Of a DNA stretch of 64,000 bases, positions 47,921 through 52,750 are shown piece by piece. How positions within the stretch are numbered: position 1 is the first letter of the stretch; each line of letters opens with the position of its first letter. Origin of the DNA: Longimicrobiales bacterium. Lineage in GTDB: Bacteria; Gemmatimonadota; Gemmatimonadetes; Longimicrobiales; Gaopeijiaceae. The notes under the pieces were generated by a model. It did not search any database and was not told where the DNA came from. It saw nothing but the letters and a program-made list of their open reading frames with translations. A program made the position numbers and the translations under genes. The stretch covers positions 1 to 64,000 of the forward strand of contig JAPKBW010000008.1 in NCBI GenBank assembly GCA_028823235.1, in the 5' to 3' direction.

Positions 47921-49183
47921 CTATTCCCAGGCTCGGAGCGCCAGGCAAACGTTGTGCCCGCCAAAGCCGAACGAATTCGTCAGAGCCAGTCCGACAGGGC
48001 GTTCGATCATGCCCCCGTGTGCGTACTCGAGGTCACATGCCGGGTCCGGCTCAGAGAAGTTGATCGTCGGTGGAATTTTTCCAGTCCGGCAAACCATCAA
48101 GGAAGCGATCGCCTCGAGGGCCCCTGCAGCGCCCAGAAGATGCCCTGTCATGGACTTCGTCGACCCGACTACGATGTTGGACGCGTGGTCCCCAAGAACT
48201 GCCTTGATTGCCTCAGTTTCAATCGCATCAGCCATCGTCGAAGTTCCGTGGGCGTTGACGTAATCAACATCATCAGCCGTGGCGCCTGCGTACTTGAGGG
48301 CCATTCGCATCGCAGCTTGAGCCCCATCCCCTCCCGGCGGTGGCGCTGTGATGTGATGCGCATCCGCGCTCAGTCCGTACCCAACCAATTCACCCAGGAT
48401 GTTCGCGCCGCGCGACTCAGCGTGGTCTAGCGACTCGAGCACAACGGCACCCCCACCCTCTCCCATGACGAATCCGTCCCGGTCGCCTGAGAAGGGTCGA
48501 CTGGCTCCGGCTGGATCTTCGTTCCGAGTAGACATTGCCTTCATCGAGGAGAATCCGGCGAAGGTCATGGGGGTAATGGTCGCCTCAGCTCCACCCGCGA
48601 TCATCGCGTCCGCGTCACCATGGCGTATGTGCCGCATTGCGTCTCCGATAGCGTGCGCAGAGGACGCACACGCTGACACGGTGGCGTAGTTCGGACCCTT
48701 GAGGCCCCAACGAATCGAGATCAGCCCGGCAGAGATATCCGGGATGAACATCGGAATGAAGAACGGGCTGACACGACCCGGGCCGCCCTCGATCAGTTTC
48801 CGATGCTGCTGCTCAAACGTGGAAATACCACCAATGCCGCTGCCAAAAATCACACCAAACCGTTCTGGGTCCGTCCCGGACGGCAGAGTCTCAAGCCCTG
48901 CGTCCTCCAGGGCCTGCGCCGACGCTGCGACGGCGAACTGAGACACTCGATCGTGTCTCCTGACCTCCTTCCGGTCCAGGTAGTCGAGGGGGTCAAACCC
49001 CTTCACCTCGCACCCGATGCGACAGGCGAAGTCGTCGGTTGCATCAAAATGTGTGATCGGCCCCCCGCCACTTACTCCGGCGAGCAGGTTCGACCACGTA
49101 GTCTCAAGGTCGCCACCGACGGGAGAAACCGCGCCCATCCCGGTGATGACGACCCGCTTCGCGGATACGTTACCCATCGTCAT
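47921..49183 (-). CDS. fabF: 3-oxoacyl-ACP synthase II
   Basis: 420 residues. KAS I/II fold: VVITGMGAVSPVGGDLETTW, catalytic Cys172 in TVSACASSAHAIGDA, first His in YVNAHGTSTMADAIE, Lys/His in STKSMTGHLLGAAGALEAI, and the C-terminal NSFGFGGHNVCL. Elongates acyl-ACP with malonyl-ACP. Two ATGs (49183, 49177) lie next to each other. Between acpP and ispF in the operon. Confidence 0.96.
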   Translation of the reverse strand: MTMGNVSAKRVVITGMGAVSPVGGDLETTWSNLLAGVSGGGPITHFDATDDFACRIGCEVKGFDPLDYLDRKEVRRHDRVSQFAVAASAQALEDAGLETLPSGTDPERFGVIFGSGIGGISTFEQQHRKLIEGGPGRVSPFFIPMFIPDISAGLISIRWGLKGPNYATVSACASSAHAIGDAMRHIRHGDADAMIAGGAEATITPMTFAGFSSMKAMSTRNEDPAGASRPFSGDRDGFVMGEGGGAVVLESLDHAESRGANILGELVGYGLSADAHHITAPPPGGDGAQAAMRMALKYAGATADDVDYVNAHGTSTMADAIETEAIKAVLGDHASNIVVGSTKSMTGHLLGAAGALEAIASLMVCRTGKIPPTINFSEPDPACDLEYAHGGMIERPVGLALTNSFGFGGHNVCLALRAWE

Positions 49184-49533: not shown

Positions 49534-50277
49534 CTACATCACCATCCCGCCGTCTACCGCCAATACTTGGCCGGTAATGTAGCGCGCACCGGGCCCTACG
49601 AGAAACCGCACAACCCTAGCAATATCATCAGGTTGACCCAAGGCGCCCAGTGGGATCTGCGCCAGAAGCGCTTCAACCTGAGACTCGGTGAGTTCATCGG
49701 TCATGCTGGTCTTGATGAAGCCCGGTGCGATGGCGTTGCAACGCACGCCCCGGGAGCCCAATTCCTTCGCGACACTCTTGGTCAGCCCGACCATTCCGGC
49801 CTTCGAAGCGGCGTAGTTTGCCTGGCCTGCGTTGCCAGTGAGTCCGACCACGGAGGTAATATTGATGATTGAGCCGTCCCGCCTCTTCATCATTCCTCGT
49901 GTTACCGCGCGAATGAAGTTAAAGGAACCCTTGAGGTTGGCAGCGATTACTTCATCGAATTCCTCATCCTTCATCCGCATGAGGAGGTTGTCTCGTGTTA
50001 TTCCGGCGTTGTTCACCAGAATCCCCACGACGCCTTGTGACTCCTCAACAGCCTTGAGTGTAACTCCGACCTGCCCCGGGTCCGCGACATCACATGCGTA
50101 GCCGGCGTGCCCGACCCCGGGAAGCTCTTTCGCAGCCGCCTGCGCGTTCGCGCCTCCTCGTCCGACGACCGCCACACGAGCTCCACCCTCAGCGAGTGAC
50201 TGTGCGATGGCCCGACCGATGCCCCTCGAGCCGCCGGTGACTAGAGCGACAGACCCTTCAAGTTCTCTTGTGCTCAC
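49534..50277 (-). CDS. fabG: 3-oxoacyl-ACP reductase
   Basis: 247 residues. SDR family: NADPH loop [27 protein letters not shown], catalytic Ser142, Tyr155 and Lys159 in [23 protein letters not shown] (cited in two parts), and a C-terminal [19 protein letters not shown]-dependent reduction of 3-ketoacyl-ACP. Begins 2 bp after the broken fabD, whose translation may still help couple fabG. Confidence 0.96.
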
Positions 50278-50279
50278 GT

Positions 50280-50768
50280 TCAGGCCTCCAGGCCGTCGAA
50301 GTCGTCAGGTTCCCGTCGTGCAATGCGGAGGATTCCCTCGGAGTTTCTGCGATTCAGTCCGCTCAGGACCTTGGTAGTCCAATTTCCATAACGCGATCGA
50401 CTCTGGCATCCACCATAGTCGCGACCAAGCCGCTCCATTGAGTGGGAGAGGTTAGCAGCATGATGAGCATGTCTCTTACTGCGGCGCCAGTCACAACGAG
50501 TGCAGTCGCGACGTTCGAGACCAACGAAAATGCTCGGGTGTGGAAGTCTATGCTCAGCTAGATGAGCACGAAGGCTATCTGCCGGCGGCGTCATGAGTGC
50601 CGATTGAAAGGCGCCCGAACCCTTGAGCAGAATCGCCCGCTTGGCCCTACTGGCTTCAGTGGCTTCCTCCTCGAGGACCGCGGCAGCCTTTGACTGACCT
50701 CGCGCAAGAGCCTGAGTCATGACGTTGTATAGAGGTCCGTGCCCAAGTGAGAACAGTGCGAGAGACAT
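50280..50768 (-). pseudogene. fabD: Broken malonyl-CoA:ACP transacylase
   Basis: In the usual fabD slot, a 162-codon frame retains the two ends of FabD only. The first ~35 residues (MSLALF, then TQALARGQSKAAAVLEEE) are the FabD N-terminus with the GQGSQ loop altered to LGHGPLY. They join directly to the late segment AKRAILLKGSGAFQSALMTPPADSLRAHLAEHRLP, so about 140 residues including the active-site GHSxGE are missing. The late catalytic His (AFHSALM in the family) is Gln (CAA). After SIFV the frame shifts; VSNVATALVVTGAAVRDM to ARVDRVMEIG is in another frame, then TKVLSGLNRRN returns to the first. Non-functional. Confidence 0.88.
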
Positions 50769-50783
50769 TATGTCGGGACGAGC

Positions 50784-51779
50784 CTACAGGCGAAGCGTCA
50801 TTGCTCCCCACGTCAGCCCAGCCCCAAATGCGACCGTGAGGATATTCGAACCAGGGCCGGCTCGGCCTTGCTCAATTGCTTCGTCCAGCGCGATCGGGAC
50901 GGTCGCAGAACTCATGTTGCCATACTTGTTCACATTAACGAACACCTTCTCCATCGGGATGCCCGAGTACTTTGCGGTGGCTTCGATAATTCGGATGTTG
51001 GCCTGATGCGGCACCAGTAGATCGATGTCATCAGCCGTCATGCCGGCCTTCTGTAGCGCGAGATCGCATGCCTCCGCCATGTTTCGGACCGCACTCTTGA
51101 AGATTTCACGACCCAGCATCTTCATGAGGTGACGGCCTTCGTCGAGCACACTCTGACTGACCGGATCGACGGCCCCTCCACCGGGTCGATATAGTAGATC
51201 CGCCAGATTTCCATCAGATTGGAGATGGGAAGATAGAATTCCGCGCCCCGAGCCATTCGATCGTTTGACGACCGCAGCGCCCGCGCCATCTCCGAACAGC
51301 ACGGCTGTCGTACGATCCGTCCAGTCGATGATCGCGCTCATCTTTTCCGCAGCGATGACTAGTGCGACATCGCCGCGGCCCGCCGCGAGGTACCCTTCGG
51401 CCATGCTCAACGCATAGATGTGTCCCGTGCAGGCCGCTTGGATATCGAAAGCGAAGGCGTTGTTGCATTCGAGGAGGGGCTGCATGTCACACGCGGTGGA
51501 GGGCAGCCATCGATCGGGCGTCGCAGTCGAGACGATGAGTAGGTCGACCTCGCCCGGATGCACGCCTGCCCGTTCCATAGCCTGACGGCCGGCAGCACTC
51601 CCCATTTGCGCCGTGGTAAGCCCCTTCGGAGCGATTCGACGTTCGCTGATGCCGGTGCGCGTCCGGATCCATTCATCGGACGTATCCATTTGCTTCGCGA
51701 GGTCAGCGTTGGTCACCACATTGTCCGGGAGAAAACGGCCGGTGGCGACGATTTCTACGATTGGGGTCGGTGTGTTCAT
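50784..51779 (-). CDS. fabH: 3-oxoacyl-ACP synthase III
   Basis: 331 residues. Thiolase-fold initiating condensing enzyme: DEWIRTRTGISERRIA, catalytic Cys117 in DIQAACTGHIYALSMAEGY, His in LLVPHQANIRII and Asn in VNKYGNMSSATVPIAL. Joins acetyl-CoA (or branched acyl-CoA) and malonyl-ACP. Overlaps plsX by ATGA; 15 bp before the broken fabD. Confidence 0.96.
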   Translation of the reverse strand: MNTPTPIVEIVATGRFLPDNVVTNADLAKQMDTSDEWIRTRTGISERRIAPKGLTTAQMGSAAGRQAMERAGVHPGEVDLLIVSTATPDRWLPSTACDMQPLLECNNAFAFDIQAACTGHIYALSMAEGYLAAGRGDVALVIAAEKMSAIIDWTDRTTAVLFGDGAGAAVVKRSNGSGRGILSSHLQSDGNLADLLYRPGGGAVDPVSQSVLDEGRHLMKMLGREIFKSAVRNMAEACDLALQKAGMTADDIDLLVPHQANIRIIEATAKYSGIPMEKVFVNVNKYGNMSSATVPIALDEAIEQGRAGPGSNILTVAFGAGLTWGAMTLRL

Positions 51780-52750
51780 GGCTTCAAATCCTCAACACTG
51801 TGTTGGACCAATCCGGCCCGGACGGCTCGTGCGGCGACCGCCAGCGCGTTCCGAATTGCTTTTGGCGGAGAACTGCCGTGACAGATAATGGATACGCCTC
51901 CCAAGCCTAGTAGGGGTGCTCCACCATACTCGGCATAATCGAGGACCCGGAAGACATGGTCCAAGTCCAGTTTCTGATCTTTGGCCTCGCCAATCTCGTC
52001 GCGCAAGAGACCTACGATGTGTTCGGCGACCGATTCATAGAACTTCAGCAGGATGTTCCCAACGAATCCGTCACAGACGATCACATCGCACTCTCCCTGC
52101 ACGATGTCTCGGCCTTCAACGTTCCCAATGAAATTGATGCCATCCACACTGAGAAGAGCCTGGTATGTCTCAACCGTCAGGACACTTCCCTTGCTGGGCT
52201 CCACGCCGATATTGAGCAATCCCACTCTTGGATTTGTATAGCCCATCGCGTCACGGGCGTACACGCTCCCGAGATGAGCAAACTGCACGAGATGGTGGGA
52301 TTTGCACCCGATGTTGGCACCGGCATCCAGCAGAAGACAGAGCTCGCCGGCGGTTGGTAGTAGCGCACCAACGGGTGGGCGATCCACACCAGGAAGAGGC
52401 CGAAGTGTAAACAGCGAGGCTGCCATGACCGCTCCGGTGGAGCCTGCGCTGACGAAAGCGTCTGCTTCCCCGGCCTTGTGCAATTTCAGGCCCACCGCGA
52501 TCGACGAATCGGGCTTTCGGCGAATTACTGATGCGGGCGAGTCCTCGGGTGAGACGCGGTCCGGTGCATGATGTACACGGATACCCGTCGGGACGTCGTC
52601 GTACGTTGCTAGTTCTGCGCGGATCAGTCCTTCGTCGCCCACGAGTATGATTTCGGCGTCAGCTGCTGACTCCTGGAGTGCCTGAATGGCCCCCGCGACC
52701 TCAGGTCGCGGGGCGTGGTCGGTACCCATCGCGTCCAGTGCTATACGCAA
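51776..52750 (-). CDS. plsX: Phosphate acyltransferase
   Basis: 324 residues. RIALDAMGTDHAPRPEVAGAIQAL, VSPEDSPASVIRRKPDSSIAVGL, FVSAGSTGAVMAASLF, LLNIGVEPSKGS, FIGNVEGRDIVQGECDVIVCDGFVGNILLKF (conserved blocks). Makes acyl-phosphate from acyl-ACP for phosphatidic acid synthesis. 85 bp downstream of rpmF and coupled to fabH, the classical rpmF-plsX-fabH order. Confidence 0.95.
   Translation of the reverse strand: MRIALDAMGTDHAPRPEVAGAIQALQESAADAEIILVGDEGLIRAELATYDDVPTGIRVHHAPDRVSPEDSPASVIRRKPDSSIAVGLKLHKAGEADAFVSAGSTGAVMAASLFTLRPLPGVDRPPVGALLPTAGELCLLLDAGANIGCKSHHLVQFAHLGSVYARDAMGYTNPRVGLLNIGVEPSKGSVLTVETYQALLSVDGINFIGNVEGRDIVQGECDVIVCDGFVGNILLKFYESVAEHIVGLLRDEIGEAKDQKLDLDHVFRVLDYAEYGGAPLLGLGGVSIICHGSSPPKAIRNALAVAARAVRAGLVQHSVEDLKP

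Follow-up and report, generated by a model that had tools for sequence, protein, structure and literature searches.

The stretch of DNA analysed here (the window) is the opening 64 kb of contig C8, which is 132,750 bp long and belongs to a metagenome-type assembly of a Longimicrobiales bacterium (G000; 3.14 Mb in 90 contigs, 97.2% complete, 1.9% contamination). Its closest named relative among the retrieved records is a Gemmatimonadetes metagenome genome (L038) whose FabH is 83% identical. The minus strand of the window carries fatty-acid genes in the order rpmF-plsX-fabH-(fabD slot)-fabG-acpP-fabF, with the following features:

47921..49183, minus strand: fabF (KAS II), intact, 420 aa
49226..49468, minus strand: acpP, intact, 80 aa, DSL phosphopantetheine serine present
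49534..50277, minus strand: fabG, intact, 247 aa, GTG start at 50277, two bases past the TGA of the fabD remnant
50280..50768, minus strand: fabD remnant (pseudogene), an open frame of 162 codons from ATG to TGA, between fabH and fabG
50285..50289, minus strand: fabG Shine-Dalgarno sequence GGAGG, within the last codons of the remnant and 7 nt before the fabG GTG
50784..51779, minus strand: fabH (KAS III), intact, 331 aa, normal constraint, stop at 50784-50786
51776..52750, minus strand: a gene that we take to be plsX from recognition of its sequence, intact, upstream in the same gene run

Apart from the fabD slot the type II pathway is alive in G000, with fabH, fabG, acpP and fabF all intact and constrained, as a preliminary description of this DNA had claimed for the operon, and with fabZ scoring above its cut-off. 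The malonyl group is presumably accepted by the acpP product.

When aligned with the corresponding slots of eight genus-mates, the remnant resolves into FabD codons ~1-36 joined directly to codons ~179-307 (the C-terminal ~129). The intervening in-frame deletion measures 438 bp against G001 and G003 and 429 bp against the other six genus-mates, and the lost stretch carried the AQP (Q62), GHSLGE (S90) and RGE (R115) motifs, numbered as in the FabD of the sister genome G006. The remnant thus lacks both the nucleophilic serine of the GHSxGE block and the malonate-binding Arg and Gln. In the parts that survive, the catalytic His is replaced by Gln (AFQS for AFHS) and the GQGSQ loop reads GHGPL. 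A +1 insertion is followed by a −1 deletion, leaving ~57 codons out of frame between them, after which the original reading frame is regained, for TKVLSGLNRRNSEGILRIARREPDDFDGLEA. The preliminary description had reported the position of this slot (50280-50768), the fusion of the two ends, the missing serine block, the altered His and loop and the two-step frameshift, and all of these readings were borne out by the alignment.

This open frame is a remnant of fabD and not a chance similarity. The FabD model TIGR00128 matches positions 50378-50554 (E = 1.4e-4), at 22.2 bits against a curated cut-off of 260.9 bits, and a family FabD profile, for which 15 relatives supplied the sequences, picks out two pieces of the remnant at the syntenic position when the whole genome is searched (5e-11 and 1.2e-6). 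A Pfam search with the whole 162-aa ORF returned only chance matches, as expected for a decayed piece; descent from fabD is upheld by synteny and by the alignable ends. By operon position and by its surviving N- and C-terminal pieces the remnant belongs with FabD (TIGR00128/PF00698), but its active site has been removed and it is not a functional member of the family.

The surviving pieces have also decayed. Mean differences between the remnant and its relatives at codon positions 1, 2 and 3 are about 0.37, 0.33 and 0.64, compared with roughly 0.24, 0.20 and 0.59 among the intact fabD genes in the same columns. On a fixed tree for positions 1 and 2, the terminal branch of the remnant is 0.706 long (35% of the tree), whereas that of the adjacent fabH of G000 is 0.063 (11.5%), and neither fabH nor fabG of G000 has evolved faster than the copies in relatives. 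Constraint has therefore been relaxed in fabD alone and in G000 alone, which points to an old loss somewhere along the long terminal branch of this genome. The best explanation of these patterns is that fabD is a fixed pseudogene in the G000 lineage and was lost long ago.

Sister genomes, with which the preliminary description had proposed to date the loss, place it on the G000 terminal branch only. Full-length FabD is encoded in all eight genus-mates with an unbroken fabH-fabG stretch (G001-G007 and G013). More widely, FabD scores above the curated cut-off in 97 of 101 genomes of the family (at least 85% complete) and in 87 of 90 genomes of the order (at least 93% complete). The exceptions besides G000 are genomes in which fabD is cut by contig ends (G011 and G039) or in which the operon is missing from the assembly (G008 and G028). 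A contig end cuts fabD in G019 as well, and none of these five genomes supports a second, parallel loss. No other in-place fabD remnant was seen among the genomes examined in the family and order surveys.

In bacteria that use a type II pathway, FabD is generally regarded as essential, and it has been studied as a drug target, for example in the case of the Helicobacter pylori enzyme (work cited in PMC8003026). The preliminary description had suggested that the function had moved to a second fabD or to a polyketide-type acyltransferase. When PF00698, TIGR00128 and the family FabD profile were run against the whole genome (E ≤ 10), they revealed no second fabD in this 97%-complete assembly, nor a fragment of one at a contig end, and returned one intact malonyl-transferase, at C25:1335-2216 (TIGR00128 E = 5e-59). 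This is the MAT domain of Pfa2, a subunit of a PfaA-type PUFA (Pfa) synthase, and is thus of the polyketide type. Within the 97% of the genome that was assembled, then, there is no functional FabD and the Pfa MAT is the sole malonyl-transferase. The first destination proposed in the preliminary description was not found and the second was; the transfer of function itself we infer by analogy, as set out below.

The Pfa2 MAT is intact in its catalytic and malonyl-specificity residues. All six key positions are kept (the oxyanion Gln, the Q of AQP, the H and S of GHSxGE, the R of RGE and the H of AFH), the motifs GQGSQ, AQP, GHSFGE, RGE and AFHS are all present, and the domain aligns with FabD crystal-structure sequences along its full extent (3ptw, 1e-37). 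Pfa2 scores 1111.3 bits against the PfaA model TIGR02813 (cut-off 1010.1) despite being cut by a contig end, and it shares with PfaA-type PUFA synthases both the KS-MAT-tandem ACP-KR layout (KS, MAT and tandem ACPs on C25, KR on C18) and all of the malonyl-specificity residues. The operon encodes an ER subunit (PfaD family), Pfa2, the KS/CLF-AT-dehydratase subunit Pfa3 and a phosphopantetheinyl transferase (PPTase), in that order, and Pfa1, Pfa2, Pfa3 and the PPTase are all open frames in G000.

The G000 operon is split over two contigs (C25:1 and C18:55266; L005 and L006), with the break in the tandem ACP repeats; in G006, ER, Pfa2 and Pfa3 lie contiguously in one run. Pfa2 frames are truncated also in G002, G003, G007, G010 and G011, mostly near contig ends, so the number of ACPs is unreadable from these assemblies. 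As a cluster, the Gemmatimonadota genes form three subunits (ER; KS-MAT-ACPs-KR; KS/CLF-AT-FabA-type DH repeats, the last being Pfa3 at L006:2808-9557) followed by a PPTase gene, which distinguishes the arrangement in G000 from the five-gene pfaABCDE clusters of gammaproteobacteria. No paper naming Gemmatimonadota together with pfaA was found in the literature searched.

That a Pfa MAT may replace FabD has experimental precedent. Allemann & Allen (2021) found fabD to be dispensable in Photobacterium profundum, where fabD and pfaA are synthetically lethal, and pfa gene clusters rescue an E. coli fabD::kan mutant, except at 37 °C (PMC8174602). Likewise, the subunit-A MAT of the PUFA synthase of a thraustochytrid complements E. 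coli fabD(ts) when isolated from the rest of the enzyme, whereas the AT-like domain of subunit B fails to do so (PMC8003026). G000 resembles P. profundum SS9 in having a fabHDG operon with an inactivated fabD, a Pfa MAT as the only other malonyl-transferase and an otherwise intact type II pathway. In SS9, however, fabD was either deleted in the laboratory or inactivated by an IS insertion that was selected in MUFA mutants (PMC8174602), whereas the loss in G000 is old, occurred naturally in a lineage from a different phylum and has left a remnant decaying in place.

We consider it quite probable, by analogy with these systems, that the Pfa MAT has taken over malonyl-CoA:ACP transacylation in G000, with fabD a fixed pseudogene. 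The Pfa2 MAT (contigs C25 and C18) would load malonyl groups onto its own tandem ACPs and would also charge free AcpP in trans, and AcpP would then serve FabH, FabF and FabG. Both the activity of this domain on AcpP and its essentiality in G000 are predicted from the same analogy. The wider reading, which on balance we favour, is that this free-living lineage has naturally and for a long time run the whole of type II synthesis without FabD by means of the MAT of a PUFA megasynthase, that the synthase would now be essential, and that the dead fabD would be kept open for the sake of the genes downstream. In most genus-mates a Pfa MAT coexists with an intact fabD, and possession of a Pfa synthase therefore does not by itself drive the loss of fabD.

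The main rival to a takeover by the Pfa MAT is an intact second fabD in the ~3% of the genome that was not assembled; whether relocated or acquired, it would have made the old copy redundant and let it decay. Pseudogenes commonly arise when a second copy displaces the first, the assembly is in 90 contigs and 97.2% complete, and one member of the family, G127, does carry two FabD-like genes above the curated cut-off (C10:42432-43286 and C56:3664-4515). That genome is, however, the only such case among the 101 surveyed in the family, and the profile searches (E ≤ 10) detected no trace of a second copy in G000, contig-end fragments included; because of these two results we regard this explanation as unlikely. 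An intact alternative of an experimentally proven kind is, moreover, already present in the genome.

If the Pfa2 MAT has assumed a new partner, as we propose, signs of adaptation might be sought in the domain or in AcpP. The MAT of G000 carries 12 private substitutions, the most in the genus, but its terminal branch (14.0% of the tree) is ordinary beside those of FabH (13.5%) and FabF (14.6%). Its branch length is likewise ordinary relative to FabG, and the domain is under as much constraint in G000 as in sister genomes. It showed neither acceleration nor convergence towards FabD, and we claim no adaptive shift for it. AcpP shares 87-95% identity between G000 and its genus-mates, and neither protein shows adaptation to a new partnership. 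The laboratory precedents suggest that none would be needed.

Two other possibilities concerning the Pfa genes were considered and set aside. The AT domain of Pfa3 (C18:49056-49454) is a poor candidate for a stand-in: it reads GLSSGE for GHSxGE and so lacks the His, the malonate Arg is missing by eye, and the domain matches the PfaB family model weakly. It resembles PfaB-type off-loading domains (PMC12895367), and its counterpart in Thraustochytrium does not complement fabD (PMC8003026). The rescuing MAT and non-rescuing AT-like domain of the Thraustochytrium synthase match the pair in G000, where the MAT of Pfa2 is intact and the AT of Pfa3 has the changes just described, although that system is eukaryotic and was studied in a complementation test rather than through a natural loss. 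The Pfa contigs are also unlikely to be contaminants of the bin, given that their tetranucleotide correlation with the window is 0.96-0.98, that their GC content is 0.63 versus 0.61 and that the identities of their KS and MAT to those of sister genomes are similar to that of FabH.

A further question is why so decayed a gene has stayed open. Its deletion is in frame, the +1 and −1 shifts compensate each other, the original start and stop are kept and no internal stop has arisen. In neutral simulations that started from the sequences of relatives, imposed the observed indels and took their divergence from an estimate based on codon positions 1 and 2, the chance of remaining free of stops was ~6-10%, before restoration of the frame is counted. 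The Shine-Dalgarno sequence of fabG lies inside the remnant, and GGAGG or GGAGA occurs at the same place in two relatives (L015 and L025). A stop within the remnant would be expected to be polar on fabG-acpP-fabF, and the open frame may therefore be kept for the ribosome-binding site of fabG. Taken together, these features are suggestive of selection that keeps translation running into fabG-acpP-fabF, although they were judged after the fact and are not proof, and they lend weak to moderate support to the earlier proposal that the remnant is retained by coupling within the operon.

The same features (the in-frame 429-bp deletion, the compensating shifts, the retained start and stop and the low neutral chance of an open frame) would also be expected if the 162-aa product were a small protein that had acquired a new function, such as ACP binding or regulation of the pathway, and if the frame were selected as protein. 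We consider this very unlikely: one third of the product is read in a frame other than that of FabD, the catalytic residues are gone, codon positions 1 and 2 are much less constrained and no family matches the whole product. Translation for the sake of polarity or coupling explains the open frame with less.

Also very unlikely is a supply of malonyl-ACP that needs no transacylase, through self-malonylation of ACP or a non-homologous enzyme. Self-malonylation has been reported for the PfaA ACP domains of Moritella marina (Santin & Moncalian 2018, as cited in PMC12895367), and E. coli fabD(ts) suppressors exist whose mechanism is unexplained (PMC8174602), but the AcpP of G000 is nearly that of genus-mates that keep fabD (87-95% identity, as above) and a homologous enzyme is at hand. 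Least credible of all is an artefact in which a collapsed or chimeric region of this metagenome-type assembly hides a normal fabD: collapse, which the preliminary description had named as a possible refutation, would spare the remaining bases, whereas what survives has decayed at constrained codon positions, and has done so in this gene and this genome only, a strong argument against it, and the 132,750-bp contig is continuous with intact neighbours.

A takeover of the FabD function by the Pfa MAT would have a mechanism already known from laboratory mutants, and G000 would be its natural, fixed case. The laboratory work of 2021 predicted that Pfa-bearing bacteria might do without FabD (PMC8174602), and no natural loss of fabD alongside a Pfa synthase was found in the open-access literature that we searched, which leaves most subscription journals outside. 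If our reading is true, a natural lineage without FabD would show that prediction realised in evolution and would indicate that a megasynthase of the secondary-metabolite type can join core metabolism. The MAT domain and AcpP of G000 offer a ready pair for testing how megasynthase domains recognise a free carrier protein.

Two minor observations concern FabH. Most genus-mates carry a second FabH-like gene that is 42-43% identical to the operon FabH; no such match was found in G000, and this paralogue may have been lost from the genome or may never have been present in it. Separately, two records labelled as other taxa, PLNQ01000171 (L046; Acidimicrobiaceae) and JADFKG010000014 (L079; Chloroflexi), encode FabH proteins that are 59% and 71% identical, respectively, to that of G000, both within the range of the Gemmatimonadota matches, and these records are probably mislabelled or mis-binned.
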